Source: Methylomonas sp. LL1 (lineage in GTDB: Bacteria > Pseudomonadota > Gammaproteobacteria > Methylococcales > Methylomonadaceae). Taken from it: DNA of 64,000 bases. A program made the translations under genes and the position numbers. The stretch is taken from assembly GCF_015711015.1 (NCBI RefSeq), contig NZ_CP064653.1, positions 620,001 through 684,000 of the forward strand. Direction: 5' to 3'. A model generated the notes under the pieces. It was not told where the DNA came from, made no database searches, and worked only from the letters and a program-made list of their open reading frames with translations. Position 1 is the first letter of the stretch, and every line of letters begins with the position of its first letter. Below are positions 8,680 through 44,003 of the stretch, in pieces.

Positions 8680-9732
8680 TCAAACATAATGCTGATGGGC
8701 TTTTGTGAGCATCGATTGAATATCCTGTCGTAGCTCTGATGGTGAAATGACTTCAATTCGATCGGCTTCACCCATAATCCACCAGCGCAACTGCCAGGTA
8801 TCCAGAACATCGGCTGTCAACAACTTGAATCCCAAGCTGTCGGCTTCGGAAACGATTTGGTTTTCACTGAGAGGCGATTCTTGAAGTATCAATGCCAAAT
8901 GGTCGCGAATTTTTGCCTCAAGGCGGATGGGCGATGCGGTACCAAAATGTCCCTGCCGTTGGGCAAATTGGTGCAAATCAAAGCCGTTTTTTCCTCGACA
9001 ATCGTCTGCTAGAACTTCTACCGTCAACATCCGATGCAAAGCATAAAGATATACATCTTCATATTCGTTGGCCATGGCGGCCAAGTAAGTAATTGGGCCA
9101 CGTTGAATCAAACCTAAAGGATGCAAGCGGTATGCTTTGGGCTCGGCGTCAACCTTTTGAGTAGCGTGGTAGCTCACCCTTAGCTGTTTTTCATTTAGCA
9201 ACGCATCATGCACTGCCTCAAGAATTTCACCTCTGACTTCTGGTGGGATAAGCGGTTGTGCCGGTTGAATCACGCAAATTTTTTCAGGCCAATGGGTGAT
9301 TTGGCTTTTCTTATGCAGCTCTAGTGTCTGGTGGGCTTTTGTGAAAATATCTTGCAATGGACGAGTCAATAGCACAGGCAACGATTGGCTCAGATAGCGT
9401 TCAACCATTACCAGCGACAACGCTTCCGGCAAGGTAATGCCACCCTGCAATTGTGCATCTTTGCCTACCCAACGATAGCCATGGGCTAAGCCAGCTTTCG
9501 CCTCGCCGTTTCCCTGACTGTTGTCGTTACATTCCAACTGCGGATAAGTTTCTAGTAACGATTTCATATCGCGGCGAATGCTGTGCGTTTCTACTGCGTA
9601 ACCTTGTTGTTGCAAATCATTGACGATTTCTCCAACGGTTACCCATCGCTCAGACCGCCCGCTCAGCCGACGAATGCTTTCCAACACCAATAGCCGTCGC
9701 TGCAGAACAGCTTGAGATTTTTGATCAGGCAA
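8680..9732 (-). CDS. HTH-WYL transcriptional regulator
   Basis: A 350-aa regulator. An N-terminal winged helix spans about residues 8-65 (RRLLVLESIRRLSGRSERWVTVGEIVNDL, HSIRRDMKSL). A WYL-type ligand domain lies at about residues 175-255 (YRLHPLGLIQRGPITYLAAM, EYEDVYLYALHRM), followed by the WCX C-terminal extension ending near WQLRWWIMGEADRIEVISP. The start is TTG at 9732 with GGAG 6 nt upstream; no better ATG exists in the helix-turn-helix region. WYL regulators often control defence islands such as BREX and CBASS (BrxR/CapW) and respond to nucleic acids. Here it is divergent from the HNH gene and the sspBCD operon. Confidence 0.85.
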   Translation of the reverse strand: MPDQKSQAVLQRRLLVLESIRRLSGRSERWVTVGEIVNDLQQQGYAVETHSIRRDMKSLLETYPQLECNDNSQGNGEAKAGLAHGYRWVGKDAQLQGGITLPEALSLVMVERYLSQSLPVLLTRPLQDIFTKAHQTLELHKKSQITHWPEKICVIQPAQPLIPPEVRGEILEAVHDALLNEKQLRVSYHATQKVDAEPKAYRLHPLGLIQRGPITYLAAMANEYEDVYLYALHRMLTVEVLADDCRGKNGFDLHQFAQRQGHFGTASPIRLEAKIRDHLALILQESPLSENQIVSEADSLGFKLLTADVLDTWQLRWWIMGEADRIEVISPSELRQDIQSMLTKAHQHYV

Positions 9733-10693: not shown

Positions 10694-10887
10694 GCAGCGG
10701 TGACGCGACTGATTTCGTTGTTGACTAAGGGATATTAATATTGCGATGCGGAGTGTTTATTGGGATTAAGTACGCAAAAACACGGCAGCCTCGACCTTGG
10801 TGGATGTTAGAATTAAGAGAAGACGAGTGCGCGTTGAACGCAGCAATCGCTAAATTTTGGCATTTATACCTCCTAATAATTTTATAC

Positions 10888-11808
10888 ATGGACAGTCTGC
10901 TCAAGCCGCTTAATCCTAAAAAAGCATCATTCGGTCGACATGAAACATTCGCACTCCGTTATTCATGGTTAACCAAAGGATTTCAGGCTTTCGAAAAAAA
11001 CCAATCCATATTTTCTTCTGACGAATCCACGATAGAACTCGGCGTCGGTAAAAACATGGTCAACGCCATCAAATACTGGTTGAGAGCCAGCGCTATGTTG
11101 CTGGATACAGACGAAGGCTTAGAAACATCAGCGCTTGGCGAAGCCATTCTTTCTGACAATGGCTGGGATCCTTATCTTGAAGACGAAGCCACGCTTTGGC
11201 TTATTCATTGGCAATTGGCCACGAATGCGGAACTGGCTACAGCCTGGTATTGGTTTTTCAATTGTTACCATAAGGCCGAGTTTACGACTGATGATGCCAT
11301 GGAAACGTTAGCTGAGTTTGTGCGTAACAACCTGAATGGCAAGCACTCGGAAAGAACCGTAAAACAAGAAGTTGCAATGATATTGCGGATGTATTGCCCC
11401 TCTAAAGGCAATGCTAAATTGATTGAAGAAAGCTTGGATTCGCCATTAGCCTCTCTAAAACTGGTTACTGCTGTAGAAGACCTACACATTTACCGTTCCT
11501 ATGGCAATTTGCAATCGAGTTTACCGATAGAACTGGTTGGCTATGCCGCCAACGAAATATTTAATCAACGGCAGACCGAATATCTTCCAATTGCCGATCT
11601 AATGTACGGCCCAAAAAATGGGATTGCACTGGGAAGCATATTCAGACTGACAGAAAGCGCCTTGTTGGCAAAATTAGAAAATTTAGTGAAAGCATACCCC
11701 GACATTTTTCAAATCAATGAAACCGCTGGCGTCAATCAGCTTTACCGGCAAGATAACACGACCGAGTCCCTGACTTTTCTTAGGTCTTATTATCAACCTA
11801 CCCGGTGA
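10888..11808 (+). CDS. sspB: SspB-like DUF4007 protein (phosphorothioation nickase component)
   Basis: A 306-aa DUF4007 protein. The family opening FGRHETFALRYSWLTKGF is at about residues 14-31, followed by LGVGKNMVNAIKYWLRA near 53-69 and DPYLEDEATLWLIHWQL near 95-111. In the Vibrio Ssp system the DUF4007 protein SspB nicks DNA so that sulfur can be inserted in one strand. The frame is open to 10741 through TTG, but the Met at 10888 gives the family N-terminus; the extra 49 codons look non-coding. sspC follows after 10 bp and sspD after that, the standard B-C-D order. Confidence 0.85.
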   Translation: MDSLLKPLNPKKASFGRHETFALRYSWLTKGFQAFEKNQSIFSSDESTIELGVGKNMVNAIKYWLRASAMLLDTDEGLETSALGEAILSDNGWDPYLEDEATLWLIHWQLATNAELATAWYWFFNCYHKAEFTTDDAMETLAEFVRNNLNGKHSERTVKQEVAMILRMYCPSKGNAKLIEESLDSPLASLKLVTAVEDLHIYRSYGNLQSSLPIELVGYAANEIFNQRQTEYLPIADLMYGPKNGIALGSIFRLTESALLAKLENLVKAYPDIFQINETAGVNQLYRQDNTTESLTFLRSYYQPTR

Positions 11809-11818: not shown

Positions 11819-14800
11819 ATGAAAGATATTGGACAAGTAGACACCCATTACACCCGTTCTATCAACTTAGAACGAGATGCCGAGTCAAGCGATGTTCTTA
11901 GGGCTTATATTCCAACATCCCGAGCCGTTCAAACTTTAGACAAAATCGCACAAACATTTAACCAAAAGGCGATGCCTAGAGCATGGTCTTTAGTTGGGCC
12001 GTATGGATCGGGCAAGTCGTCGTTTGCTGCGTTTCTGGCGCATCTTTTAGAAAACCAGGAACGCACAAACAGCGTACTTGCCGAAGAAATTTTGCAGCGA
12101 CACAATCCGGAAGTCGCGGAAAAATTTACCGCCTGCACACACGACTCTAATGCCTATTGCATAGTGCTATTAACCGGTAGCCCCGAGTCATTGAGCAAGC
12201 GGTTCGTTCAAGCGCTATACCAAGCTGCGGTCGGCTATTTCGAAGAAATTGAACCAAAAGGCAGGTCTTCAATCGTCCACGACCTAGAGCAAGCAAGACA
12301 CCAAACGCAAACAACCAGCGGAATTATCGAACTGTTAAAAAAACTGCGCGAGGCCGTGAGCCATGTTTCTGGCAAAGGCATTTTGATCGTCATCGATGAG
12401 CTGGGAAAATTTCTGGAATACGAGGCCCGCCATCAGGGTAGCAATGACATCTTTTTGCTGCAAGCACTAGGCGAATTATGTGTTGAAGGCGGGGATGCCA
12501 ACATCCTGCTCGTGGTATTGATGCATCAAGCCTTCGAACAATACTCAAGAGGTCTTGCCGAAGCACAAAAACAGGAATGGTTAAAAGTACAGGGGCGGTT
12601 CGAAAATGTGCCGTTTCTGGAGTCAACGGAACAAACATTAAGAGTCATATCGGCGGCCTTTCACAGCCAATTAACACCGGCAGCCCGGCAAGACATTCAG
12701 GAACAGGTCACCGAAATCGTAGGCGTATTAGCCGAACAAAACGCCCTCCTGTCAGGATTGTCGGCAGATGCGGCCATAGACGTTCTGACAAAATGTTATC
12801 CCCTACATCCGATTGCGACACTGTTATTACCGACGCTGTGTCAAAAACTCGCTCAAAACGAAAGAACCCTGTTCAGCTATCTCGGCAGTCAGGAATACTT
12901 TGGTTTTAAAGACAGCTTAAGTCGAATACAACATGTGGGTGACTGGGTATTGCCCTGGGAAATCTTTGAATATTTCATAGAAAATCAACCTTCGGCTACC
13001 ACGGATCATGCAACCCACAGACGCTGGGCAGAAGTCATCACTGCTACGGAACGGTTGGGCGATGCCGAAGCTCGGGAAATTCAATTATTAAAAACCATCG
13101 GCCTATTTAATATCATTGGCCGTCAAACAGGATTTAAAGCCAGTCAGGAAATATTAACCCTGTGTTTCCCAAAATCGGTCGATGTGGAGCAACTGCTTAG
13201 GAATCTGCAGGCTAAATCCATTATCAACTATCGCAAATACAGCTCGGAATATCGGGTATGGGAAGGTAGTGATTTTGACCTTGATGCCGCCATTATCGAA
13301 ACGACACAAAAGCTTGGTCGCGTCAATTTGGCTGAGGCACTGACACATCGAAACCAGCTGATGCCGGTCGTCGCCCGCAGGTACTCCATAACCAGCAGCG
13401 TATTGCGCTATTTTCAGCCCTTTTATGCAGACGTTACAACGCGGAATGATTTTTTCGAAAGTGTCGACCAACCCAGGATCGTTTTCTTTTTGGCGGAAGG
13501 GCAAGACGAACGCGAGATGTTCGGTGAAAAAGTCAGGACTTACCCTGACCCACTCACGATCTACGTCTTATGCGATAACGCCGCGCAAATCAAACAAGTG
13601 GTTTCCGAAGCGATTGCGTTGGAAAAAATTCAAAGCGAACGGGCGGAATTAAAGTCAGACCCCGTTTCGCAACGAGAACTGAAAGATCGACTCCAAACGG
13701 TGAACCGCTTAGAACTCGATCTACTCAATGCCTATTTGGAACAGCCTGAGTCTTTTGACTGGTATTGGAAAGGCGCTCAAACGCTCCTGAACAGCAAAAA
13801 GAACCTGCAAACCTTACTCTCAAGGGTTTTGGAGACGGTTTTTAATAAAGCACCGTTGATTAAAAACGAACTGATCAACCGCGACAAAACCTCGGGACAA
13901 GCCAATGCCGCAAAAAATAAACTGGTAGCGGCTTTATTGTCTAACCCCCATTTGGAAGACTTGGGATTCGATCCTAAAAAATACCCCCCTGAAAAAACCA
14001 TTTATCGTGCGGTATTCAAAGAACCGGGTATTCATGAACTACACAATGGTGTGTGGCAATTCATTAATCCAAGTCCGACTAACAAATATCGATTTTATGA
14101 CGTATGGCAAGCGATCGATGAACAATTAAAAAGCAGTCAGCGTCCGCAGCCGCTTGTCGACATCTATAAGCTGATAGAACAACCGCCTTATGGTGTGCAA
14201 AAAGGCGTGTCATCGCTGATTTTTGTCGGGTATTTTCTCGCTAACCAGCGTTCATTGGCACTCTACGAAAGTGGCGTTTTTTGCCCGCATGTAACGCAAG
14301 AGCATTTCGAAATCTTATTAAAGCGTCCCGAGTTATTTGCTGTTGAAGCGTTTGACTTTAGTGGAATTCGTGCCGATTTGTTTAATCAATATCTAGAAAG
14401 ATTGGTGGGTAAGTCGCCGGAAAATAGCACCCTACTCGACATCGTTAAACCATTGGCAAAATTCATCCATCAATTGCCGGCTTACACCTTAGCCACGCGG
14501 GAATTGGACCCAAAAGCGTTGGCGGTGCGCGACGCGTTCCAAAGCACGCAAAGTCCGATGCAATTATTGTTTAAGGAATTACCGGAAGCTTGTGGTTTCC
14601 CCCCCTATACCGACGAGCAACACTTTAACGGCAGTAACCCGAACGATTTTCTGAATGTGCTGGTCGAGTGCCTAAATATCCTGAATAAAGCTTATCAGAA
14701 GTTATTGTCCCAGTTTAAACGCCAGCTCTGCCAAGCCTTTGAACTGAGCGAACAGGAAGAGATCAGCACACTAAGACATGCGCTTAACCAACGTTATGCG

Positions 14801-15226
14801 GGTCTGGAAAAATACACCGTTGATGGGCAAGGGCTCAAAGCCTTCATCATAAGGCTGCAAAACGAAAAGGATACCGACCAAGGCTGGTTGGAATCGGTTG
14901 CAGCATTTTTGGGCAGTGCTCCCCCAGATAAATGGAAGCCAAACAATATTACTCAAGCCGATTATCGCCTGCGTGAATTGAGTGAACGTTTAAAAGAATT
15001 AGCAGTAGTACACGCCGAACAACAAAAAGCCGATGTTGGCAGCCAAGCGACATTAATCCGTATCGTGAGCGAACAGGGAGAATATAGTGAAATTGCCTAT
15101 ATGACCGAAAAACTCAAGCAACAAGCCGATGCAAAAATCGCGGAACTAAAACTAGCAAAAGCGGACAAGGCATTAAAACAAGCCATTCTGGCTAGATTGA
15201 TACGCGAACTAACCGAATACAATTAA
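11819..15226 (+). CDS. sspC: SspC-like giant P-loop ATPase
   Basis: A 1135-aa ATPase. Walker A GPYGSGKS lies at about residues 61-68 and a Walker B ILIVIDELGKFLEY near 188-202. A region CYPLHPIATLLLPTLCQ near 328 and PPYGVQKGVSSLIF near 790 are shared with PglY/BrxC-type ATPases and with the second giant ATPase of this locus. In the Ssp system SspC is the ATPase that works with SspB and SspD in DNA modification. It is followed by sspD with a 16-bp gap. A BREX BrxC assignment was considered, but no PglX, PglZ or BrxL is present and the neighbours are those of phosphorothioation. Confidence 0.82.
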   Translation: MKDIGQVDTHYTRSINLERDAESSDVLRAYIPTSRAVQTLDKIAQTFNQKAMPRAWSLVGPYGSGKSSFAAFLAHLLENQERTNSVLAEEILQRHNPEVAEKFTACTHDSNAYCIVLLTGSPESLSKRFVQALYQAAVGYFEEIEPKGRSSIVHDLEQARHQTQTTSGIIELLKKLREAVSHVSGKGILIVIDELGKFLEYEARHQGSNDIFLLQALGELCVEGGDANILLVVLMHQAFEQYSRGLAEAQKQEWLKVQGRFENVPFLESTEQTLRVISAAFHSQLTPAARQDIQEQVTEIVGVLAEQNALLSGLSADAAIDVLTKCYPLHPIATLLLPTLCQKLAQNERTLFSYLGSQEYFGFKDSLSRIQHVGDWVLPWEIFEYFIENQPSATTDHATHRRWAEVITATERLGDAEAREIQLLKTIGLFNIIGRQTGFKASQEILTLCFPKSVDVEQLLRNLQAKSIINYRKYSSEYRVWEGSDFDLDAAIIETTQKLGRVNLAEALTHRNQLMPVVARRYSITSSVLRYFQPFYADVTTRNDFFESVDQPRIVFFLAEGQDEREMFGEKVRTYPDPLTIYVLCDNAAQIKQVVSEAIALEKIQSERAELKSDPVSQRELKDRLQTVNRLELDLLNAYLEQPESFDWYWKGAQTLLNSKKNLQTLLSRVLETVFNKAPLIKNELINRDKTSGQANAAKNKLVAALLSNPHLEDLGFDPKKYPPEKTIYRAVFKEPGIHELHNGVWQFINPSPTNKYRFYDVWQAIDEQLKSSQRPQPLVDIYKLIEQPPYGVQKGVSSLIFVGYFLANQRSLALYESGVFCPHVTQEHFEILLKRPELFAVEAFDFSGIRADLFNQYLERLVGKSPENSTLLDIVKPLAKFIHQLPAYTLATRELDPKALAVRDAFQSTQSPMQLLFKELPEACGFPPYTDEQHFNGSNPNDFLNVLVECLNILNKAYQKLLSQFKRQLCQAFELSEQEEISTLRHALNQRYAGLEKYTVDGQGLKAFIIRLQNEKDTDQGWLESVAAFLGSAPPDKWKPNNITQADYRLRELSERLKELAVVHAEQQKADVGSQATLIRIVSEQGEYSEIAYMTEKLKQQADAKIAELKLAKADKALKQAILARLIRELTEYN

Positions 15227-15242: not shown

Positions 15243-16031
15243 ATGAGTGACGATAAACCTGTTAGACATTTATTAGGGTTATCAGGCGGCAAGGATAGTG
15301 CGGCTTTAGCGATTTATATGCGAGATAAAGTGCCGGAGATGGAATATTTCTTTGCCGATACTGGTGCTGAATTGCCTGAGACATTGGAGTTTGTAGATTT
15401 AATGGAAGATTATTTGGGAAAAAAGATTACTCGATTAAACGCTGGACGTGGCTTTGATTATTATCTGAAATTAAATGGAAATTTCTTGCCAACCGCTCGT
15501 TCCAGATGGTGCACTATTAACTTAAAACTTAAGCCTTTCGAAGAGTTTGTAGGAAACGATCCAGTTATTAGTTATGTTGCAATCAGAGCAGATGAACCTT
15601 ATAGAACAGGGTATATCTCTACAAAGCCTAATATTAAGGCCATTTATCCTTTCAAAGAAGATGGAAAAGTAAAAGACGATATAATTAAAATTTTAGAAGA
15701 GTCTGGTATAGGAATTCCAAAATATTATGACTGGCGTAGTCGTTCTGGATGCTATTTTTGCTTTTATCAAAGAAAGATTGAGTGGATTGGTCTTTATGAG
15801 AACCACCCTGACTTGTTTGAAAAAGCCAAGGAGTTTGAAGACTATCATAGGAATTTGGGTAGGAATCACTCTTGGTCTCAAGATGAATATTTAGAAGAAA
15901 TGCTAGCCAGGAAGGATGAGATAAAGGAAAAATTTCAATTGATTAATCAAAATAAAAAACCAAAGAACCTCGTCGATGTTGTTTTAGACGAAGATGGTGA
16001 TGATGATGGCTGCTTGGTTTGTTTTAAATGA
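15243..16031 (+). CDS. sspD: SspD/DndC-like PAPS-reductase-family sulfurtransferase
   Basis: A 262-aa adenine-nucleotide alpha-hydrolase of the PAPS reductase family. The PP-loop SGGKDS is at residues 14-19. Cysteines at C90, C170, C173, C257 and C260 (SRWC, GCYFC, CLVC) are suitable for an iron-sulfur cluster as in DndC. It should activate the DNA backbone by adenylation and receive sulfur from the cysteine desulfurase. Its stop overlaps the next start (ATGA at 16028-16031), linking modification and restriction genes in one transcript. From here the sequence is visibly more AT-rich than in sspC. Confidence 0.88.
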   Translation: MSDDKPVRHLLGLSGGKDSAALAIYMRDKVPEMEYFFADTGAELPETLEFVDLMEDYLGKKITRLNAGRGFDYYLKLNGNFLPTARSRWCTINLKLKPFEEFVGNDPVISYVAIRADEPYRTGYISTKPNIKAIYPFKEDGKVKDDIIKILEESGIGIPKYYDWRSRSGCYFCFYQRKIEWIGLYENHPDLFEKAKEFEDYHRNLGRNHSWSQDEYLEEMLARKDEIKEKFQLINQNKKPKNLVDVVLDEDGDDDGCLVCFK

Positions 16032-18376
16032 ATTCAGGTGAAATTTTTGATCTTTTCCGTTCGATTAGTGTAAGGCAAGTTGGAGAAAGATATTCCCCCT
16101 ATAAACCACTTTTACTATTATATGCATTATCTCAATGCTACTTAGGAAAAGATAGATTATATAGCTACTCAGAAATTGATCACGCATTAAATAAAGTTGT
16201 AGATAGATTGTTTGTCAATTTTGACTATCGGAATTTCCATTATGCTTTTGGGAGATTAAAGAATGACAATATTTGGGAGATTAGTAGTAATGATTCGTTG
16301 AAATTGTCAGGCTCAGGGGATTTACTAAAGTCTGAATTACTTGATAAAAATATCAGCGGTGGGTTTACAGAAGAAATATATCAAGTTCTGAAGGAGGACA
16401 AAGATTTAATTTTGTTTATCGTTAATTATATTATGACTAAATATTTTTCTGATCAAATACACTCCCAGTTGTTATCAGATTTTTCATTTTCTATGAAGGA
16501 TGCCGAGATTCATCCTAATAATATCTCCGAAATAAAGCCAACGTATAAGAATAAAAAAATCATGGATGCAATAAATAGTGGAGAAAATCACATGGCTGAA
16601 CGGCAGAATGGTTATATTGCCTATTTAAACTCTTTACATAATGTTTCGGCTAACGGAGCAAATGCGTTAGCCGAGTCCCAAGCGTTAAATATTTACTTTA
16701 CGGAGATTTACCAACCTTTTCCTTTGGTTGAGGACCTTTATAAATCCTTAACCGAAAGAAAAGAGCGAGTTGTTATTTTGACTGGTCACGCAGGCGATGG
16801 TAAGTCGACTGTGGCCTTGGATGTGCTCAAACGTTTAAGACAACTACCAGCTGATAAACCGCTAGATTACGCTTTAAATGAACGCGAAGAGACGATTCAT
16901 GCTAATGGCAGGGTAACTATTGTCAAGGATATGAGTGAGTTGACTGAACAACAGCGCTTAGACTGGCTAGAGCAAGGATTCGCCGAGTCTGGCAGTTGGT
17001 TGATCGTAAGCAATACGGGGCCATTAATTCATAGTTTGGCTGACTATGTAAAAAAAATCGGCGGCAGAGTTGATATAGAGAGCGATATTCTAGAGTGTTT
17101 GGATCGGCCTTATGAAAATGGCAACTTAGCGCAACATATAGTGTCCGGATTTAGTAAGGAACTGGTCGTTCTTAATATGACTAGATTAGATAACGTATCC
17201 CTAGGGTCGAGGGTGCTGTCAAAAATGGTCAATCACTCTGCTTGGGATCAGTGCCTTGGTTGTGAAGCGGAAGTTAGCTGTCCACTACGTCTCAATCGAA
17301 ATGCATTACTCGCAATATGCGAAACAGTTGAAGAACGAGTCCGCTGGGTATATCGACGTCTCACTTCCTATGAACAACGCTTAACTTTGCGTCAAATGGT
17401 CGCCCACCTTGCTTTAAGTCTTACCGGCGGTCTGAGCTGTAACGAGGCGCATAATCTTGTCAAGAACGCAAACGAAACACATAAAGGCGAGAATGAGAGC
17501 TTAGACCTTATTTTATTCAGTGAGGCTTTCTTTGGTTATCGTTGCGGTCAGCCATGGGGAGTTGCCGAGAGTTTGCGGGCAGTTTCTTTGATAAAACGTT
17601 CTGTTTATGGAGGACCTATTGCAGTAGATTTCGAACGACAGTTATTAGCTACTGGCAGTATTGAGGGGATGCATTTGCCAGATTCATTGACTGGTACTAA
17701 ACAACGCTGGCGGAAGCGCGCAGTTGATGCGGCTGGAGTGCGTTGGAGATTCGCTCTGCGTCGTATGTTGTATTTTTTTGGCCAACAGTCCTTGCCAACA
17801 ACACTGCTCAGCGATGAGTTTCTTTCTTCCTTCTTACAGTCGCCCAAGTTGAGAGACTTTAATCGCTGGCAGAATGAGGGTGGATTGACGCTAGGAAGCA
17901 GTGAAAAACGTGCATTACTGAAAAGATGTCTTCAAGTCCTACTTGAAATTTATTCCGGTTTTAGCGCAGGTCAATTTGAAAGCGATGACTCTCTCTATCT
18001 GACGCTACGACGTCCTGACCATCTTGTTATCCAGCCTACCCAATTAATTGTCGCAAAGTTAAATAATCAGGAATTTTCATTAGGTTACGACACTACGCGG
18101 CTTGTCCCTAAGTTAGTTTATAGAAATGGTTTAGCCGAACTTCCCTTAACTTTGCCGTTAATCGATTATATTCATTGCCGCTCTATCGGACAGTTAGGAA
18201 ATGAGCTGGCCCCTATACATTTAGCGCAACTTGAATGGTTTAGAGCCGAGCTATTAAATAATTCGAATACTTTTCCCGCCGGCGAAGTTGGGCTATTGCG
18301 ATCAGGTATTGATGGCAAAGTGATAATGCATAGATTTGTGATAGATGAACAGAAACAGGAATTGGAGAAATACTAA
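16028..18376 (+). CDS. DndF/DptF-like restriction ATPase with N-terminal sulfur-binding-like domain
   Basis: A 782-aa protein in two parts. Residues 1-150 resemble the phosphorothioate-DNA sulfur-binding domain of ScoMcrA-type nucleases: YSPYKPLLLLYAL at 22-34 and HYAFGRLKNDNIWEI at 71-85 match its KPLLLLxALgrl and YPFWRLxNDGlWEv blocks, though the Pro of YP is Ala here. After a linker, residues about 190-782 resemble DndF/DptF, with Walker A GHAGDGKS at 253-260. DndF works with DndG and DndH in the restriction complex. An internal ATG at 16592 (M189) with GGAG 8 nt upstream could yield a 594-aa DndF alone, so both forms may be made. Overlaps: ATGA with sspD, TAATG with the next gene. Confidence 0.72.
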   Translation: MNSGEIFDLFRSISVRQVGERYSPYKPLLLLYALSQCYLGKDRLYSYSEIDHALNKVVDRLFVNFDYRNFHYAFGRLKNDNIWEISSNDSLKLSGSGDLLKSELLDKNISGGFTEEIYQVLKEDKDLILFIVNYIMTKYFSDQIHSQLLSDFSFSMKDAEIHPNNISEIKPTYKNKKIMDAINSGENHMAERQNGYIAYLNSLHNVSANGANALAESQALNIYFTEIYQPFPLVEDLYKSLTERKERVVILTGHAGDGKSTVALDVLKRLRQLPADKPLDYALNEREETIHANGRVTIVKDMSELTEQQRLDWLEQGFAESGSWLIVSNTGPLIHSLADYVKKIGGRVDIESDILECLDRPYENGNLAQHIVSGFSKELVVLNMTRLDNVSLGSRVLSKMVNHSAWDQCLGCEAEVSCPLRLNRNALLAICETVEERVRWVYRRLTSYEQRLTLRQMVAHLALSLTGGLSCNEAHNLVKNANETHKGENESLDLILFSEAFFGYRCGQPWGVAESLRAVSLIKRSVYGGPIAVDFERQLLATGSIEGMHLPDSLTGTKQRWRKRAVDAAGVRWRFALRRMLYFFGQQSLPTTLLSDEFLSSFLQSPKLRDFNRWQNEGGLTLGSSEKRALLKRCLQVLLEIYSGFSAGQFESDDSLYLTLRRPDHLVIQPTQLIVAKLNNQEFSLGYDTTRLVPKLVYRNGLAELPLTLPLIDYIHCRSIGQLGNELAPIHLAQLEWFRAELLNNSNTFPAGEVGLLRSGIDGKVIMHRFVIDEQKQELEKY
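16581..16594 (+). promoter_or_regulatory. Possible internal ribosome binding site and start within the DndF-like gene
   Basis: GGAG followed after 8 nt by ATG (16592) lies exactly at the boundary between the sulfur-binding-like domain and the DndF-like part. Use of it would give a product without the reader domain. Only sequence spacing supports it. Confidence 0.3.
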
Positions 18377-19959
18377 TGACAACAGAAAAATATGGAAATG
18401 ATGATTTGGCTGTTGTGCTCCAACGGTTTCCATCGGGAAGAGAGAATGATAATGTTGGAACCGATAATCCAGCTATTCATATTTATGGAAGACGGTTTTA
18501 TAAAGATCAGACACCCATTGAGTATTTGGCGGAGTTTTTATTGGTATTTGCATCGCCAAAGCAAGAAAATGGTGAAGGATGTTATCAGTTTGCCAATGTT
18601 CCATGTTATTGGCCGGAAGATAGACTTGCACTAAAACTATTTTCTTTTTTCCCATCTTCTAAATTAGAAACTAGACACCCTGTGCATCGTCAATCTTATC
18701 TTGATGCTATCGATGCGGTTAAAGAAAGAGTTAATGGCAACAAAGAAGATAAGGAAGAGGCTGTTCGTTTAATTCAAAGTTTGTTTAATGGTTTCGTTGG
18801 TGTAGCTAAAAATCGAACTTGGGTTACCTATAGTTTTCTGCCTGCTTCAACAGCGTTTCTATCGCGCGAAGTTAATTGGGAGCATGTCAAAGCCCTGAGG
18901 GGCGCCCAAGGTCAAGTAACTGATTGGGAGTCATCAAAAGTTTACTTTGCTGATAATTTAAGAAATTTTATGGGAAGAGGTGGTGAGTTACTATATTTGC
19001 AAATAGTAAATTTTTTAGCACAAACAAACTCTCCTGATATTAATAGAATGTTGGAGGTCGAAGAATATCAGCATTTGAGACATAAACTGAATAATATTGA
19101 CTCAAATTTATCTAGTGGTTTGCGAGGGTTGTTAGAAGAATTTGGAGGGCAATTAGGGGGCTTAGTTAATTTAATAGAGAACACATTAGAGAGCTATAAA
19201 ATAAATTCTGAGCTAAAGTCATCAAGTCTCGGTTGGGTTCCGGCAATTAGTAAGACGGAAGGTGCATTATTCGCATTGGAAATGGATAATATTTGTTCGT
19301 CAAGACTTGGTTTGCTAGATAAGCTCGAGCTATTGAAAACGCTATGCTGTATGCAGGTTTTAAGGAGTCTTTGTTTTCAGGCGCGTAGACTCGATAACTC
19401 AGAGAAAACTACAGCGGGATTTATTGGGAATTATGTGTGGATAGTAACAGATTCAGAATCTAAGCCTGGGACGCCAATTCGTCAAATGGCACAAGACTCA
19501 TTTAATCGCATAGATGCCATGTTATATAGAGTATTGAGAATCCCTAATTTATTTAAAGGTAACTTTCAGCCAACGGAAAAAGATTTAAAAAATGGAGATG
19601 ATAATGTTTTTAGACATTTTAGAAAGTTTACCAAAGAAATTGGGTTAGTCATTCCACAAAAAGGCAGCGGACAGCGTTTTACTCTTCATCAGGGGTTATT
19701 AAGATTTTTAGTTGCGACTCTTATTTGTCCAGGAGAAAGAATACGGCTGAATCATTTTTATCAAAGGGTGTTTGCTCATTATGGTATCGCATTAGGGCGA
19801 GAACAACTTGCCGTCGCTCTTAACTGGTGTGGTAACGAAGTGGATGCGGAAAGCTATTCAATCACTGCAAATACCACTTGGATAGAGGAAGCTCTTCAAC
19901 AAGGCGGTTTTCTTGTTGAATTATCAGATGCCGTGTCAATGGTTAAAAATCCTGGATAA
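18376..19959 (+). CDS. DndG/DptG-like restriction protein
   Basis: A 527-aa protein without catalytic motifs that I can name. It is placed as DndG/DptG (the middle component of DndFGH-type phosphorothioation restriction) mainly by its position between an F-like ATPase and an H-like motor protein, and by its fitting size. Recognisable segments are the N-terminal IHIYGRRFYKDQTPIEYLAEFLL (near 32-54), which is conserved-looking, and a helical middle with GLRGLLEEFGGQLGGLVNLI. No signal peptide. It starts inside the stop of the preceding gene (TAATG) and ends 18 bp before the next, so subunits are likely made in stoichiometric amounts. Confidence 0.6.
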   Translation: MTTEKYGNDDLAVVLQRFPSGRENDNVGTDNPAIHIYGRRFYKDQTPIEYLAEFLLVFASPKQENGEGCYQFANVPCYWPEDRLALKLFSFFPSSKLETRHPVHRQSYLDAIDAVKERVNGNKEDKEEAVRLIQSLFNGFVGVAKNRTWVTYSFLPASTAFLSREVNWEHVKALRGAQGQVTDWESSKVYFADNLRNFMGRGGELLYLQIVNFLAQTNSPDINRMLEVEEYQHLRHKLNNIDSNLSSGLRGLLEEFGGQLGGLVNLIENTLESYKINSELKSSSLGWVPAISKTEGALFALEMDNICSSRLGLLDKLELLKTLCCMQVLRSLCFQARRLDNSEKTTAGFIGNYVWIVTDSESKPGTPIRQMAQDSFNRIDAMLYRVLRIPNLFKGNFQPTEKDLKNGDDNVFRHFRKFTKEIGLVIPQKGSGQRFTLHQGLLRFLVATLICPGERIRLNHFYQRVFAHYGIALGREQLAVALNWCGNEVDAESYSITANTTWIEEALQQGGFLVELSDAVSMVKNPG

Positions 19960-19977: not shown

Positions 19978-22900
19978 ATGAATCTTTTTACCCAAACTCT
20001 GAAAGCCCATTTAATCGAGGAATGGGAGCGGGCAATGAGCTCGCCAGATAGCGAGAAGAAAGCAATATTTATTGTTGAGAGTCTTGACCCCGATAACACA
20101 ATTGAACTTTTTTCTGCTCTCGAGGATTTTCGTTTAAAAAGTCAGCTGAATAAACAACTAGAGTGCCATTTTAAGGTGGCAAAAAATCTCTGGCTTGAAT
20201 GGTGTAAACGTCAAGGTGAAGATAGTTTGCGTAAGAAAATGGCAGCGAAAGGCTCCATTGATGCAAACGGTAATTTGAAATGGGTGGACCAAGATGATCG
20301 ATTGACTAAATGGCGGAACGAACCCATTTCAGCGGATGTCGACGGTTTGGTAGTTGTATTGCTAGGCTTCAACCATGCTTCGGATCAAGGTGGTTTAGCC
20401 GATTTCCATATGGTTGACGAGAATCGTGTTTGGAATCAATTAGGGCAAAGTTTTATTCCGTGGATTCGGCAAGTCAATGAAGAGCTAGCCTTAGATGGGG
20501 CCGAGCCAGAAATAGAAAATTTCGACAGCATATTACATCAACTATTTAAAGTCCGTCCTCGCTTATTAGTTAAATTAGCAGAATTTTTTGAACAAAAGAT
20601 TTATAGACGGCGGCAGGATTTTGGTTCTATTAAAGATGTTATTGAGCAATTTTATAAATCCTTAGCATTTTGGGATATCCCGCCTTTATTAAATGTAGGT
20701 AATTCTAAAAAGTCTGCCAATTTGATTAAGGAAGCCGATGCCTTTATTTCACACCAAAAGTTTAAGAGTGCGTCAGATCAAAAGAAAGCTTGGAGCAAAC
20801 TAGAAAACGCTTTTGCTGATGAACATGAACCATTGGAAGTTCCAGAAGTTTTGTCTGTGAATCCGCTATATGAAAATGTAGATGATTTCAAAAGAACTTT
20901 GCATGACTTTATTTTCAAAGCACATGCCGAAGCTAAATCAAAGTTGTTGCAAACCGATTTACTTCCGGTATTAAAAGCATTGAAGCTACGTGTAACGGAA
21001 AAAAAAGAACGAGAAAAAGTTCAACGTTTGAATGGCTTCAGTACAGAGATCATGTTAGATGCCGTATGGCAAACCTTGCTTGAATTTGAATCACAATGTA
21101 GTGGCCGCCCTTTAGCTGATGTCATAAAAGAAATTCAAATCATAATAGATCGATTCAATCACGATTTAGATGCGGATGGCTTAGCTGAAGAACTTTTGTA
21201 TGGTTGCTTAGGCGGTTTATCGGAATGGTTCGATGGCATCGATCTGCGTTTCCCTATCGATGAAGATCAGGCACTTCAATTGCGCGATCAATGGAAATGT
21301 CTTGTGCCAATCAGCTTAGACATGGGAAATGTGACCTATGGGACTGGCAGATCACGTCCTCATATTTCTTTCAAAATCATGTTTATTACGACTGAAGATT
21401 TTGAAAATTTTAAACCTCGCGTTTTCCAATGGGCGTTTGGGCCTACGCATCCAGAGCGGGTTCAATACGATTGCGCTAAATCAGCTTTAGAGCGATGGGA
21501 GTCGGTCGCTACAACAACTGACGTTATGTTGCCAGCGTTTAGTATGCCAGAAGTCATCATGACGGCACTTTATTTTGCTGCGGATGCGGAAGAAGCTAAT
21601 CGTTTGGTGAGTCAAGCTTTGTCTGAAATTAAGATGACAAATCTGATCGATAAAATCGATATGTCAATAGTTGATAAATCGCTGTTGGATGGATTGAGGG
21701 AGTTAAGTTCGGCTTATTTTAACTGGTTACAGTATTTTGCTCAGAACGGCTATTTCTCAGCGATGCGAGGGCACTTTATCGCCGTACAAAGAGCTTATGA
21801 GGGTTTTGCCAAGCAAGTTTTGGACAAAAGCATTGCTGGCAGCGAAGAACTATTGCGTTGTTTTTACAAGGCATTTTTGCTCATTGACGAAGGCGTCAAT
21901 CCTAATGATGGATTTTTGAGATCGGCTATTGTTTGGGGAATTAGTCCACCTGTTTTGGAGCTTACTCAGGCTAGGTTTCGTTTTTTATGTGATAGTTTTC
22001 CAGAAGTTATCGGGCAACATTTGATCAACCGAAATGGGAAAAGCGCCTTTGATCGCTTGCTCAACTTGATTGAAATTCATCGCCCATTAGCCGGTTTAGT
22101 TATTGATGAGCAGAGAACTCTATCTGCGAAAATAAAATCATTTGGCTTGTTGCATTATTTGGGAACGCCTCCTTCAACGGAAAAGAGCTTAGCCGTACAA
22201 ACATTATTGCGCGATGAAGAAAACGATGATGATGAGAACATCGCTGATGTAGTAAAGCCCACGGAAGAGAGTTCGGTCGTTGTTCGGGTTTTGTCCGATT
22301 ACCAGTCGCTTTATCCTTTTGCCGAGGATGGTTTGCGTGTTCTGGCTGTTCATGTCGAAGAGCTTGCAACGATTTTGTCCGGGGTAGACCGGTTCTTACG
22401 CACTTATCTGAAGCGTAGCTCTGAAGAGTGGCCGCCGTTTCATTGTGAAGTGATGGTGTATTCCACTTCGTCGTCACCTCTATCCATAGAAAGTCGATTG
22501 GCATCTTGGCGACATCAATTAATGGAGGATTATCGCGAACAAGGGCGTTTTGTCATCATTTCGGTTGCTCATCATTTTGCACCAACCCCCGAAAAAATGG
22601 TGAAACTACTCAAGGATGAAATCCGGCAATACGATATTGCTTTTCTGTTTCGGTTTTTATCTAGCAAACTGACAGGAGATGCGGAAACCGCACCACCGTT
22701 TGAATTTGATTTCAATGCCAATAATTTGGGCCAATTTCCAATCTGTGAGTACCCAAGACCCATTCAACAGGGAGAGCAGTTTAAGCGTAAAAGCCTTTTG
22801 AGTAATCGCCGGCTTCGCATTCAGACTCATCACGCGGACTTGTCTGCTCGCTTGCGTCATCCACAAAACCCGGAAGGTGAACATTTGATCTTTGGTCAAA

Positions 22901-25308
22901 TTGATTATCAGCCTTGGTTGGAAGTCGTGGAAGCTATGCACCAAAAAGCACAATGGGTGGCTTGTATCGATCCCTTTGTAGATAAACATTTACTCGCGAA
23001 TAGCGATAGAAACGGCGAACGGAAAATTGTCGGATTTACCTCTGGTTTGGGCGCCTATGGCGAATTGAATTTGTCGATTTCAACCGAGCAGGACACACTT
23101 AGGCAATTGACTGCTATGGTCGAAAATCATTTGATTGGCCTATTGCCGTTTCAGTCAGGTGGAAATTTTGAAGGAGTGGCAGCTCGCATCGTAAATAAGG
23201 CAGAAGAGGTCATCGGCTTGTCTTCTTTGCGAGCAGTAGTAGGGCAAGGAGAGAAAATAAGAGAAGTTATAGGCTTCGCCGCTATTCGCAGTGTATTGTC
23301 GGAACCGGCGAATGCTGTCATGACACAGTTATTACCCGTCGATTCATTGCAACACTGGTTTTCGGGTAGTGAAGTGACTCATCGTCCTGATCTTCTGCAA
23401 TTGTCGTTGATATTGCGTGAAAACGACATCCCTTTGATTCAAGCAGTATTAATTGAGTGTAAGTTTGCTCAACAAAATGAAAGCCACCTGCTAAAGGCCT
23501 GTGATCAAGTCCAAGATGGCCTCAGTCATTTAACGCAGTTGTTAACGCCTAATCGTTGCGATATTCGGAGAGTGACATTCGACCGTCGTTATTGGTGGGC
23601 TCAACTCCAAAGATCCATTACTTCGCGGTCAATTGTTTCGATGCCGAAACAACAGCAAGAAAAGTTGGATCAGGCATTAGAGCAATTAGCGGAAGGATAT
23701 TATGAAATTCGTTGGCAGGGCGCAATCTTTACCTTTTGGACGGATGATCCGAGGAAGAATGCATCAATAGAAAATATAACCTTGTCTCCAGGAGTTGTTT
23801 CAGCGCCTTATCAAGTTCCCGTCAGCGCAATGATTCGCCATGTTTCTTTTGGTCATCAGGGATTGATGGATATTTTCGATGCTAATGGGGAAATCAAAGA
23901 GAAACTTGAATTAGTGAATTATCCTATCTCTGTTAGGCCTGCAGTGAAGCAATCTAGTGGATTTGCTTATTTAACTGCCGATATTTCAGGAACAGAAGAA
24001 AAAACATCCGAAACGATACAGTTGCCTTTTGATGAAATTGCTGTGCAGCAAGAAATAGTTGAAGAAAGTATAAAAATTGATGTTGAGAAAGAAGTTTCTA
24101 CTAATGAAAACGATTTGAAAGATGTCGAATCAGTAAGAGTTACTAAACCAGACGAAAAAACATTGTCAGTGGAGTTTTCATATAGTCAGCCACCAGAAAA
24201 ACTCTTAATTGGTAATAAGAGCAATGGTGAACCAGTCTATTGGCATTATGGACATCCTCAGTTGGCTAATAGACACATGCTGTTATTTGGAACATCTGGT
24301 TCGGGCAAAACCTATGGTATCCAATGTTTGCTGGCTGAAATGGCAAAAGAACGCATGCGTTCATTAATTATTGACTACACGGATGGCTTTTTACCAAATC
24401 AAGTTGAGTCTCGTTTTCGTGAAGTAACCAATCCCCAAAATCATTTTGTAATAACTGACAAACTACCATTAAATCCCTTTAGAAGGCAGCAACAATTAAT
24501 TGATCCTTCCATACCAGCGATAGAAGAAAATTCTTATCAAGTCGCCGCAAGGGTAACAAGTATTTTTACTTCTGTTTATGGCTCGATGGGTGATCAACAA
24601 ACTTCAGCTTTAGTTCGGGTGTTAGAGCAAGGAATAGAAGAGAATCCGCAATTCAGTTTAAATGAAGTAATCGATAGACTAAGGCAAGATGGTCAACATG
24701 GTGAGTCTTTGGCAAACAAATTAGAACCGTTTATAAAATCAAGCCCCTTCCGTGAACAAAGTAATTCAGCGTGGAGCGAGATGCTAGTTTCAAAAGATAA
24801 TTGGGTTCACGTGCTTCAGCTTAAAGGGTTATCACGAGAGATTCAAAAATTAGTTACTGAGTTTGCCCTATGGGATCTTTGGGATTATGTGTGTAATACA
24901 GGCAATAAGAATAGACCGATTCCTGTTGTCCTAGACGAAATACAAAACTTGGATCATCGAAGTGATTCGCCAATCGATAAAATGCTAAGAGAGGGACGTA
25001 AATTCGGTTTATCGTTAATGTTAGCGACACAAACAACCAGCCAGTTTGATCAAGAGCAACGTGATCGATTATTTCAGGCTGGCCATAAACTTTTCTTCAA
25101 GCCAGCAAATACGGAAATTCACCGGTTCGCTGACTTACTCAGTGTGGCGACCGGAATTTCTAAGTCTGAGTGGGGAGAAAGATTAGCGAAGTTGCAAAAA
25201 GGACAGTGTTGGTCGCTTGGTCCTGTGTTGAGTTCAAGCGGCGTATTAAGAGAAAAGCCTGAATTGGTTTCGGTAACATCATTGGAAAACAGAGATTTCG
25301 GAGTTTAA
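19978..25308 (+). CDS. DndH/DptH-like restriction protein with HerA/FtsK-type motor
   Basis: A 1776-aa protein, the size typical of DndH/DptH. The first 1400 residues have no named domain; a part near 1000-1260 (WVACIDPFVDK, LILRENDIPLIQAVLIECKFAQQN) resembles a DNA-end or PD-(D/E)xK-like region with an E-C-K motif, but this is only suggestive. The C-terminal 350 residues form a HerA/FtsK-like translocase: Walker A GTSGSGKT near 1438-1445, SLIIDYTDGF, Walker B PVVLDEIQNL near 1647-1656, then GRKFGLSLMLATQTTSQF. It should be the DNA-handling engine that damages unmodified foreign DNA together with the F- and G-like proteins. RBS AAAAGGAAG precedes it. Confidence 0.75.
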   Translation: MNLFTQTLKAHLIEEWERAMSSPDSEKKAIFIVESLDPDNTIELFSALEDFRLKSQLNKQLECHFKVAKNLWLEWCKRQGEDSLRKKMAAKGSIDANGNLKWVDQDDRLTKWRNEPISADVDGLVVVLLGFNHASDQGGLADFHMVDENRVWNQLGQSFIPWIRQVNEELALDGAEPEIENFDSILHQLFKVRPRLLVKLAEFFEQKIYRRRQDFGSIKDVIEQFYKSLAFWDIPPLLNVGNSKKSANLIKEADAFISHQKFKSASDQKKAWSKLENAFADEHEPLEVPEVLSVNPLYENVDDFKRTLHDFIFKAHAEAKSKLLQTDLLPVLKALKLRVTEKKEREKVQRLNGFSTEIMLDAVWQTLLEFESQCSGRPLADVIKEIQIIIDRFNHDLDADGLAEELLYGCLGGLSEWFDGIDLRFPIDEDQALQLRDQWKCLVPISLDMGNVTYGTGRSRPHISFKIMFITTEDFENFKPRVFQWAFGPTHPERVQYDCAKSALERWESVATTTDVMLPAFSMPEVIMTALYFAADAEEANRLVSQALSEIKMTNLIDKIDMSIVDKSLLDGLRELSSAYFNWLQYFAQNGYFSAMRGHFIAVQRAYEGFAKQVLDKSIAGSEELLRCFYKAFLLIDEGVNPNDGFLRSAIVWGISPPVLELTQARFRFLCDSFPEVIGQHLINRNGKSAFDRLLNLIEIHRPLAGLVIDEQRTLSAKIKSFGLLHYLGTPPSTEKSLAVQTLLRDEENDDDENIADVVKPTEESSVVVRVLSDYQSLYPFAEDGLRVLAVHVEELATILSGVDRFLRTYLKRSSEEWPPFHCEVMVYSTSSSPLSIESRLASWRHQLMEDYREQGRFVIISVAHHFAPTPEKMVKLLKDEIRQYDIAFLFRFLSSKLTGDAETAPPFEFDFNANNLGQFPICEYPRPIQQGEQFKRKSLLSNRRLRIQTHHADLSARLRHPQNPEGEHLIFGQIDYQPWLEVVEAMHQKAQWVACIDPFVDKHLLANSDRNGERKIVGFTSGLGAYGELNLSISTEQDTLRQLTAMVENHLIGLLPFQSGGNFEGVAARIVNKAEEVIGLSSLRAVVGQGEKIREVIGFAAIRSVLSEPANAVMTQLLPVDSLQHWFSGSEVTHRPDLLQLSLILRENDIPLIQAVLIECKFAQQNESHLLKACDQVQDGLSHLTQLLTPNRCDIRRVTFDRRYWWAQLQRSITSRSIVSMPKQQQEKLDQALEQLAEGYYEIRWQGAIFTFWTDDPRKNASIENITLSPGVVSAPYQVPVSAMIRHVSFGHQGLMDIFDANGEIKEKLELVNYPISVRPAVKQSSGFAYLTADISGTEEKTSETIQLPFDEIAVQQEIVEESIKIDVEKEVSTNENDLKDVESVRVTKPDEKTLSVEFSYSQPPEKLLIGNKSNGEPVYWHYGHPQLANRHMLLFGTSGSGKTYGIQCLLAEMAKERMRSLIIDYTDGFLPNQVESRFREVTNPQNHFVITDKLPLNPFRRQQQLIDPSIPAIEENSYQVAARVTSIFTSVYGSMGDQQTSALVRVLEQGIEENPQFSLNEVIDRLRQDGQHGESLANKLEPFIKSSPFREQSNSAWSEMLVSKDNWVHVLQLKGLSREIQKLVTEFALWDLWDYVCNTGNKNRPIPVVLDEIQNLDHRSDSPIDKMLREGRKFGLSLMLATQTTSQFDQEQRDRLFQAGHKLFFKPANTEIHRFADLLSVATGISKSEWGERLAKLQKGQCWSLGPVLSSSGVLREKPELVSVTSLENRDFGV

Positions 25309-25311: not shown

Positions 25312-26187
25312 ATGGAGCTCAATAAAACAGATGTCTTTGGTTTACCGCTTAATTTTCCGCAAACTTTTTTGCCAGAGCGACGCTTGTTAGCACAATTATT
25401 AACTTTTGCGCAAAAAGGAGGCTCTGGGGACAAGGTTTCCATTGGGGCTGAGACAGGCATTCCAACAGGGAAAAGCACAGGAAAGGTTGAACCGATGATT
25501 TACTACGCACGTGGCATGGGATTGATCACGGTCAACAAGACATCAAGCCATTGGCAGCTTGGCTTGACGTCGCTAGGGAGCATCGTATTGCAGGAAGACC
25601 CTTTCCTTAGCGAACCCCAGACTCTATGGTTGCTGCATTTAATGCTATCTCGCAGATTTACTTTGTCTTCTCCCGCATCGGGTGTTGCGGATGCTTGGTT
25701 TGCTTTATTTGCGGAAGGTGGGTTTCGGCTTGGCTCCCGTTTTACTCAGGCCAGTTTTCTCAATTTTTTAATTGATCGGCATGGCGAAAAAAGTTATTTG
25801 AAGTCTCTTGCCGGAGTCGTCATTCGAAGCTATCTTGAAGACAGTTGTTTGGGGCATATTGATGTTTTGCAGTCAACCGAGGATGAATTTTTTATCAGGC
25901 AATCTGCGCCGTTAGAAACGTCTTTTTTCCCTTTCTATGCGACTTTTCTTTATTTGGTTTGGGATGAATTGTTTATTTCTGAAAACCAAATCTCCTTAGA
26001 TCATTTTTCTCAGGAAACTCGTTGTTTTTCAGTGATGGCCTGGGATGATGCAATGGTTGCGCGTTGGTTAGATTGGATGGCCGACAAAGGTATTATCCAA
26101 GTAGATCGATATACCGGCACGCCTATGTTACTCCGCTTACAAGAAACGAATCAGGTGGTTAGTAATAGTTATAGCGAACTGATTTGA
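25312..26187 (+). CDS. Second, divergent DUF4007-like protein (B')
   Basis: A 291-aa protein that aligns in outline with the SspB-like protein of the same operon. Shared elements are an opening FLPERRLLAQLL, a GKSTGKVEPMIYYARGMGLI segment where SspB has GVGKNMVNAIKYWLRA, and LTSLGSIVLQEDPFLSEPQTLWLLHLML where SspB has DPYLEDEATLWLIHWQL. The rest is divergent, so it is a distant paralogue. It begins 3 bp after the H-like gene and is followed by another giant ATPase, repeating the B-C gene pair. A role in target recognition or nicking for the restriction arm is inferred; it is not part of any architecture I know well. Confidence 0.65.
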   Translation: MELNKTDVFGLPLNFPQTFLPERRLLAQLLTFAQKGGSGDKVSIGAETGIPTGKSTGKVEPMIYYARGMGLITVNKTSSHWQLGLTSLGSIVLQEDPFLSEPQTLWLLHLMLSRRFTLSSPASGVADAWFALFAEGGFRLGSRFTQASFLNFLIDRHGEKSYLKSLAGVVIRSYLEDSCLGHIDVLQSTEDEFFIRQSAPLETSFFPFYATFLYLVWDELFISENQISLDHFSQETRCFSVMAWDDAMVARWLDWMADKGIIQVDRYTGTPMLLRLQETNQVVSNSYSELI

Positions 26188-38259: not shown

Positions 38260-38263
38260 CGCC

Positions 38264-41038: not shown

Positions 41039-41333
41039 AGACATCCTCCGGGGCAGCCACCACCGCCGTTGAATCGATCACAAGATAGCCCGCATCACTG
41101 AGTTTCTTGGCCTGACCCTGCCAGTCATCGACGATCTTGGCCATTTGATCCTGGTTTGCATTGGGTGGAATGCTTTGAATCAATTTGGCGCGATCGAGCA
41201 CGAACACCGGCGTGACCAGATTCAGGCGCGCCAAGGGCTGTTGTAATTGTTGTTGCGCAGCCAGCCAGCCGCCGATGCCGCCCAGACAGACTGCGATGAA
41301 AACGGTGCTGAGCCATTGCGATTTAGGATCCAT
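41016..41333 (-). CDS. trbI: TrbI-like inner-membrane transfer protein
   Basis: A 105-aa protein with one membrane helix (WLSTVFIAVCLGGIGGWLAA) and a periplasmic part with FVLDRAKLI and KKLSDAGYLVID. The size, topology and place after traC suit the F-type TrbI family. Its ATG at 41333 (GGGAGA upstream) overlaps the end of traC by 11 bp, and its stop overlaps the start of the signal-peptidase-like gene, so all are co-translated. Confidence 0.75.
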   Translation of the reverse strand: MDPKSQWLSTVFIAVCLGGIGGWLAAQQQLQQPLARLNLVTPVFVLDRAKLIQSIPPNANQDQMAKIVDDWQGQAKKLSDAGYLVIDSTAVVAAPEDVYVRQDAH

Positions 41334-43991: not shown

Positions 43992-44003
43992 AATGGTCGT
44001 AGC

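Follow-up and report, generated by a model that had tools for sequence, protein, structure and literature searches.

How a restriction complex guided by phosphorothioate (PT) may tell the DNA of its own host from that of an invader is the question raised by a locus of Methylomonas sp. LL1, analysed here within a window of 64,000 nucleotides (NZ_CP064653.1, positions 620,001 to 684,000; coordinates below are those of this whole stretch). The window holds an uninterrupted open reading frame (ORF) of 782 amino acids (aa; 16028-18376, + strand), whose ATG start overlaps the stop of sspD and which joins a sulfur-binding domain (SBD) to a P-loop ATPase. It stands in an operon read on the + strand in the order sspB (10741), sspC (11819), sspD (15243), SBD-sspF (16028), sspG (18376), sspH (19978), B2 (25312) and C2 (26204). 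The initial annotation proposed that a PT reader is in this way placed directly on the restriction complex, possibly sparing self DNA, and after comparison this is the best-supported reading: an exchangeable SBD probably restrains SspFGH on PT-marked self DNA. It is based on domain identity, predicted fold, operon context, two effector types, pocket classes and mosaic alleles; that the SBD binds PT-DNA, that it binds the mark of its own writer and that this binding inhibits the effector is what we infer. The reader claim itself draws on a genuine SBD, on a gene that follows sspD in a PT-writing operon and on the presence of the same SBD clade on an unrelated effector in nine loci.

The first 158 residues of the fusion protein (16028..16501, +) are a sulfur-binding domain by profile, PDB match and fold. 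Both signature blocks that had been placed at residues 22-34 and 71-85 are present in the ORF, the first as Y22-S-P-Y25-K26-P27-LLLLYAL and the second as H71-Y72-A73-F74-GRL..W83, and the best profile for the N-terminus is the SBD half of NCBIfam NF045808 (PT-DNA-binding restriction endonuclease), which matches aa 11-159 with E=9.8e-25 and 87 bits, a score below the whole-protein cut-off of 180 bits that includes the HNH half. The match ends at profile position 157 of 284, and no HNH domain, by which an SBD-HNH type IV endonuclease would be known, was found at the C-terminus. When aa 1-184 were compared with PDB by phmmer, six sequences were matched at E<0.01, all from structures of the ScoMcrA or SprMcrA SBD (best 5zmo, 7.7e-5, and 7ccd, 0.0012), and a profile built from three fused homologues improved the best PDB match to 5.2e-10. 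The structure check suggested by the initial annotation, run on aa 1-188 with AlphaFold2 (nine sequences), gave an SBD fold with mean pLDDT 80.2, in which the ten-residue blocks of aa 1-150 reach 80-95, except for 66 at aa 91-100, the block of the base-contact loop, and in which the tail from residue 162 falls below 50. All 15 PDB matches of this model found by Foldseek at E<=0.001 were chains of SBD-containing proteins, and the TM-score to 5zmo, on target length, was 0.83. The full-length model (38 sequences, mean pLDDT 69.6), whose first 15 PDB matches were again SBD proteins, presents the SBD as a separate domain with a low-confidence join at aa 161-227. A chance resemblance, conceivable from the letters alone, is ruled out by profile, PDB matches and predicted fold.

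The remainder of the protein is a P-loop ATPase, as had been annotated, and the motif GHAGDGKS is its Walker A (aa 253-260; 16784..16807, +). The assignment to the DndF type had to be revised: aa 194-476 match the PADLOC SspF profile (E=4.4e-27), and no DndF model appeared among the PADLOC-DB matches of the protein at E<=0.1. Alignment with 11 plasmid SspF, which all begin at the core, showed G253, A255-K259, C409, C412 and C418 to be invariant. With the profile match, the Walker A and the Cys cluster in place, and with SspG and SspH encoded together with it beside SspBCD, the ATPase of the fusion is SspF, not DndF; the label DndF would suit it only in the wide sense that Rakesh et al. apparently give to this name (PMC10853773). 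The SspF core spans aa 195-782 (16610..18373, +) and is preceded by a linker (16502..16609, +) of low model confidence (pLDDT <50 at aa 161-227), which diverges fast between relatives. A comparable gene set is described for Vibrio anguillarum FF-93, whose SspABCD-SspFGH system likewise has sspB-C-D beside sspF-G-H, a P-loop SspF and an FtsK/HerA-like SspH (PMC8092258). In that system PT protects self DNA (PMC8092258), and self-protection in the window would be its analogue. As compared with the FF-93 SspF, of which the Walker A only is described (PMC8092258), the window adds the 158-residue SBD before the core as well as B2 and C2 after sspH.

Would the pocket of this domain still hold sulfur? 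The window SBD shares with those of ScoMcrA and SprMcrA (5ZMO, 7CC9) the fold, the pocket positions (His/Tyr, Arg/Lys/Gln, Tyr, Pro/Ala) and the position of the base-contact loop. Residues Y25 and K26 (16100..16105, +) align with H116/R117 of ScoMcrA and Y31/Q32 of SprMcrA (PMC6224610; PMC7470945), Y72 and A73 (16241..16246, +) align, as alignments and a class table indicate, with Y164/P165 and Y78/P79, and S96-G97-D98 (16313..16321, +) with the base-contact residues H102-G103-D104 of SprMcrA, columns 96 and 98 being class-specific. The sulfur-pocket pattern of a His or Tyr wall, Arg, Lys or Gln, Tyr and a Pro floor is thus fitted by Y25, K26 and Y72, and the floor is A73. The exchange of the Pro of the YP pair for Ala, noticed in the initial annotation, is real, and it is accompanied by Tyr in place of the His wall and by different base-contact positions. 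The 38 other SBDs all have Pro at position 73; at position 25, 35 of them have His, two Gln and one, a damaged frame, Thr. A first count, against 39 other SBDs, had made the window pocket look unique, which was overturned by a search of the host family. In the 22 SBDs linked to Ssp loci (stretches <115 aa and contained copies were dropped before the pocket table and the tree; five of them, at L195, L202, L204, L210 and L214, lie on short frames or fragments and count in the classes, not among the fusions) positions 25/73 read His/Pro in 11 and Tyr/Ala in 11 and are never mixed. Columns 54, 70, 76, 96 and 98 mostly track the class, G364 and G891 being His/Pro with R76, S96 and D98, and both classes occur on both effectors described below (SspF, five His/Pro and three Tyr/Ala; DUF4007, four and five).

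The Ala floor invites the explanation that the domain has lost sulfur binding and serves as a general winged-helix DNA-binding or co-effector domain. The mutation P165N abolishes binding by ScoMcrA (PMC6224610), and Rakesh et al. list a winged helix-turn-helix (wHTH) among the N-terminal fusions of DndF and call the fused domains likely co-effectors (PMC10853773). However, Y25, K26, A73, F74, R76, S96 and D98 are invariant in the 11 Tyr/Ala SBDs, which share a mean pairwise identity of only 44% (minimum 34%), Tyr at the wall is the residue that lines the sulfur pocket of SprMcrA (PMC7470945), and the His/Pro pocket is kept in 5/8 SspF fusions and 4/9 DUF4007 fusions; a loss of binding is decidedly unlikely. 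Since these residues are invariant among such diverged members, Ala73 is, as far as the alignments tell, a maintained pocket variant coupled with Tyr25. Pocket decay as such is rejected, Y25 and A73 recurring together in 11 SBDs and never mixing with His/Pro. The earlier remark that binding may be altered stands insofar as the pocket differs, and does not stand if decay is meant by it.

The second effector emerged from the search of the host family, in which 21/237 genomes matched: five with SBD-SspF, nine with shorter fusions and seven with fragments or broken frames only, which were left unclassified. The nine shorter fusions are SBD-DUF4007, with complete frames of 448-461 aa (that of G1033 is cut at 360), and their gene directly follows sspD in 9/9 genomes, in G308 after a piece of it. 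Where the contig permits, a gene of ~160-200 aa, a BrxC-like ATPase, PglZ and BrxL lie 3' of it; the whole downstream set is seen in 4/9 (G308, G904, G943, G997), the other five being cut by contig ends. The assignments in G308 are SspB/DUF4007 (2.9e-18), SspC-like (9.4e-48), PglZ (3.9e-7), BrxL (4.2e-118) and the SBD by NF045808 (3.8e-25). On the SspF side, sspD lies 5' of SBD-SspF in all seven fusion loci whose contig allows the view. Two unrelated machines therefore have one and the same domain on their first restriction gene, at a matching place in the operon. Type-4 BREX is similar to this second effector in having BrxC-like, PglZ and BrxL genes together with the sspBCD writers (PMC12839542); there DUF4007 is often fused to a PAPS reductase, and in the nine loci found here it has an N-terminal SBD. 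In G308, sspD is split by an opposite-direction ORF (L138:12293-13873), transposase-like by eye, and the downstream frames of the SBD-DUF4007 effector are open.

A tree of 35 SBDs, which took every third of the 38 other SBDs (13/38; the 38 were not viewed singly for context), placed the 22 Ssp-linked SBDs (17 fusions, five short frames) on one side and the 13 others on the opposite side with support 100/100; the mean identity of the Ssp-linked SBDs to the others is 23%. One may consider that the SBD aims the complex at foreign PT-DNA of another sequence context, which is the known job of the type IV SBD-HNH proteins (PMC6224610). Yet the fused SBDs lie in PT-writing operons and form a clade apart from the 13 sampled others, and, if the contexts did not differ, they would endanger the PT of the host itself, so that such targeting is highly improbable. 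As compared with ScoMcrA and SprMcrA, the window SBD sits on the ATPase of a self-sparing system rather than on an HNH enzyme that cuts PT-DNA, has an Ala floor and belongs to that separate clade.

Effector type needs at least two changes on the SBD tree, and exchange of parts can be followed between loci. G1027 (SBD-SspF) and G308 (SBD-DUF4007), of the same genus code, have SspB, SspC and SspD 96-97% identical (SspD of G308 over 215 residues, the gene being split by the inserted ORF) and different effectors. Within the last fifth of sspD the similarity of their DNA drops from 92% to 69%, and it is lost at about codon 118 of the fused gene. Within the SspF type, the cores of G1027 and G1010 are 95% identical (that of the window is 77% identical to G1027 and 76% to G1010), and over 4.5 kb the DNA of these two loci is 82-100% identical, mostly >95%, bar two patches. 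The first takes in codons 1-120 of the fusion gene, with 51-59% identity in 120-base steps, holds the pocket and the base-contact loop and has a shoulder of 82-86% up to ~codon 200; the second covers the middle of sspG (~codons 141-420, 49-80%). The SspG proteins of G1010 and G1027 are 91% identical before the patch, 56% within and 97% after it, and in this middle part the Tyr/Ala members (G000, G1010, G1068) are 64-72% identical mutually and 51-56% to G1027 (of the G364 SspG only a part was used). DndG was described by Rakesh et al. as a winged-helix triad and a likely target-recognition or modification-discriminating subunit (PMC10853773). Two putative DNA-reading surfaces appear, from these alignments, to have been exchanged together; as some 800 codons and a conserved core separate them, this goes beyond plain linkage. 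For the writers plain linkage suffices: in 16/16 cases the nearest neighbour of an SspD goes with an SBD of the same pocket class, against 11/15 for SspC and 9/14 for SspB, and the changes of class needed on the writer trees are two, three and three, respectively, but sspD is the neighbouring gene, and the idea that SBD class follows SspD was rejected.

A comparable exchange is known from the target recognition domains of Type I restriction-modification systems, where recognition parts are exchanged and the rest stays nearly identical. The Ssp reader would differ in reading a sulfur mark of the backbone, and there is no methyltransferase specificity subunit. It is tempting to go further and to propose, tentatively and with the balance tipped slightly towards doubt, that one SBD clade is a plug-in self-reader of SspFGH and of the BREX-4-like complex, that the two coupled classes (Tyr/Ala with an S-G-D base loop, His/Pro mostly with V-G-H) read different PT contexts, and that the SBD half and the SspG middle make up a two-part specificity exchanged in the manner of target recognition domains.

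Eight distinct genomes carry the SBD-SspF fusion at full length (the draws overlap): 3/369 in the class draw (G000, G258, G364), 1/398 in the phylum draw (the window's own), 1/40 in the order of G258, 2/63 in the order of G364 (G364, G891) and 5/237 in the host family (G000, G1010, G1027, G1068, G926); none was found in 36 other genomes of the host genus. No relatives of the fusion were found in phages (E<=1e-4), viral contigs or E. coli genomes, and the 14 plasmid matches were partial, each covering less than 80%; SBD proteins occur at 15 loci of the viral contigs. In the NF045808 class survey 45/369 genomes matched, and 13 non-fragment proteins had the SBD half matched (table read by eye), nine of which also match the HNH half (G134 with an in-frame TGA), three are SBD-SspF and one is SBD-DUF4007. 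In other words, in all four SBD proteins without an HNH match the domain is joined to a restriction subunit encoded in an Ssp locus; many further matches cover the HNH half only and are uninformative on the N-terminus. In the phylum survey (65/398 genomes) the SBD half only was matched in the window's own fusion and in a 376-aa frame of G510.

What could such a domain do on SspF? In the probable scheme, SspA-B-C-D would write PT marks on host DNA, the sulfur pocket and base-contact loop of the SBD on SspF would read them, and the contact would hold or slow the SspFGH translocase/nuclease complex on marked self DNA, whereas unmarked phage DNA would be translocated and nicked. A reader riding on a translocating complex may need only occasional marks, and sparse marking would suit it. 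The module would be exchangeable, placed on SspF in some loci and on the DUF4007 subunit of a BREX-4-like effector elsewhere, its recognition half and the SspG middle being swapped together while the P-loop core hardly changes. In PT-free cells SspFGH causes DNA damage and slower growth, both relieved by Ssp-type PT (PMC8092258); this argues that PT restrains this effector class, and the ATPase of DndFGH is repressed by PT as well (PMC11662687). The same observations bear on the converse explanation, in which the SBD recruits or activates: it would bring the complex to the marked chromosome, where PT binding would turn on the NTPase. The NTPases of SspE and DndI are stimulated by PT (PMC11662687), and SBDs of HNH enzymes bring the nuclease to PT-DNA (PMC6224610). 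The toxicity of SspFGH without PT and its relief by PT, and the repression of the related DndFGH, speak against activation, so that it is rather unlikely.

Several points weigh against restraint by an SBD reader. The abolished binding of ScoMcrA P165N has to be set beside an Ala floor in the window, and, in the ScoMcrA/SprMcrA SBD literature as given in PMC6224610 and PMC7470945, an Ala at this place is without tested precedent. A single change of class suffices on the SBD tree, from which the seven class-specific columns were excluded, so that the covariation of Y25 and A73 is one inherited event and not many. The SprMcrA SBD does not bind the known Ssp mark CpsCA (PMC7470945); therefore either these SBDs differ or these writers make another mark, and PT binding by Ssp-linked SBDs is a prediction from sequence and model. 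No SBD was found on SspF in 91 loci with a usual SspF ORF, 42 of which have sspD directly upstream (plasmid and genome_contigs loci, of 92 examined, L015 and L016 being left out). This set is biased against close relatives, because the genome_contigs scan sees only proteins with GTAGDGKT (the window has GHAGDGKS) and kept 80 of 186 relatives. Nothing recognisable but the Walker A is described for the studied SspF (PMC8092258). Since this SspF works without the domain and 0/91 carry it, SspFGH can tell PT without an SBD, and another subunit must then read PT in those systems. Finally, a single locus pair underlies the exchange of patches, and one of its two genomes, G1010, has a contamination rating of 7% and a contig that begins with the gene. 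This contig does not reach sspD, and the sole SspD found elsewhere in G1010 is a 56% homologue.

In the literature covered (PMC8092258, PMC10853773, PMC6224610, PMC7470945, PMC7461809, PMC11662687 and PMC12839542, a set with few subscription papers and no supplements) an SBD on SspF, DndF or DUF4007 is unnamed. The main text of PMC12839542 mentions wHTH+SAD+HNH nucleases and cites SBD papers, the term SBD being absent from it. PMC10853773 describes wHTH, NERD, kinase, HEPN, GNAT and Zn-ribbon fusions that precede the DndF core, and calls the SBD a wHTH; discrimination of PT-marked host DNA from invaders is proposed there for wHTH+SAD+HNH proteins of Dnd loci. The fused DndF heads are regarded as co-effectors, DndG is suggested for PT discrimination, and in the text available the wHTH on DndF is not equated with the SBD (PMC10853773). 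The published "wHTH" fusions to DndF may include this SBD fusion, and the novelty is limited to that extent. Other heads were seen as well. G657 has a close SspF core, B2/C2 and nearby sspC-D, and instead of the SBD a head of ~800 aa with PglW and MAD6 kinase matches in two kinase stretches and a NERD part read by eye; similar-looking proteins of ~1390 aa occur on the Bacteroides plasmid L009 and at G891:C29. At L157:8820-12950, next to sspC-D, the SspF protein of 1377 aa is kinase-headed, a close core thus being joined to another head. Such varied heads agree with the list of DndF heads of Rakesh et al., wHTH included (PMC10853773). At L016:7675-10903 sspF is found without sspG; after it come two overlapping frames, a small one with a HIT-like motif and one for an SBD protein whose C-terminus is HNH-like (both by eye). 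In the G891 locus, sspG and sspH are separated by a gene for an AbiEii-like nucleotidyltransferase (L155:8590-9438).

Within the fusion gene, a Shine-Dalgarno-like GGAG followed by an in-frame ATG (Met189; 16580..16594, +) stands where unfused SspF begin. An ATG is present at this point in 5/8 fusions and the Shine-Dalgarno-like motif in 4/8, among them the near-identical cores of G1010 and G1027; as background, 3/94 internal ATGs of nine window genes have such a motif, Met189 itself counted. A start at Met189 would give a short SspF without the reader, which is a weak idea only, and a short form made by an internal start is known from McrB. The GGAG and ATG may also be a scar of the fusion.

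The other genes of the operon were assigned by profile. On the + strand these are sspB (DUF4007; 10741..11808, PADLOC SspB E=1.4e-86), sspC (11819..15226, PADLOC SspC, 1329 bits), sspD, a PAPS-reductase-like sulfur enzyme directly 5' of the fusion (15243..16031, PADLOC SspD E=1.4e-108), sspG, whose middle (~aa 141-420) tracks the SBD pocket class in relatives (18376..19959, PADLOC SspG E=1.4e-21), and sspH, a HerA/FtsK-type translocase (19978..25308; PADLOC DndH E=5.3e-64, SspH E=3.2e-21; Pfam AAA_10 and DUF87). They are followed by B2, a second, diverged DUF4007 protein (25312..26187, +; Pfam DUF4007 E=2.2e-8), and C2, a diverged SspC-like ATPase of 1496 aa conserved together with B2 (26204..30694, +; PADLOC SspC E=4.2e-20). 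Both lie 3' of sspH in 6/7 assessable SBD-SspF loci, the window included; the kinase-headed G657 locus has them too, but neither turned up in the other 91 SspF loci, many of which have flanks that stop at about this point. It is possible that B2/C2 are unlisted subunits of this lineage. On the - strand the window encodes a DNA phosphorothioation-associated putative methyltransferase (31287..33860, TIGR04096 E=1.4e-184), a cysteine desulfurase of sspA/iscS type (33861..35129, PADLOC SspA E=7e-149) and, upstream, a WYL/WCX transcriptional regulator (8680..9732, Pfam WYL E=5.1e-13), which perhaps controls the ssp operon. F-type conjugation genes (TraN, TraU, TrbC, signal peptidase, TraC, DsbC-like, TrbI; 35482-47151, -) adjoin the defence operon, which suggests an integrative conjugative element.

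What does the locus mean for the biology of Ssp systems? A sulfur reader of a proven type, covalently joined to the restriction complex and found in two effector contexts, makes sulfur sensing by SspFGH and the sparing of a partly marked genome directly testable, and natural swaps of the reader supply the controls with which the question of self/foreign discrimination can be approached. If the Tyr/Ala pocket works, sulfur in DNA would be recognised in a second manner, and the domain might read CpsCA, which lies outside the range of the SprMcrA SBD.

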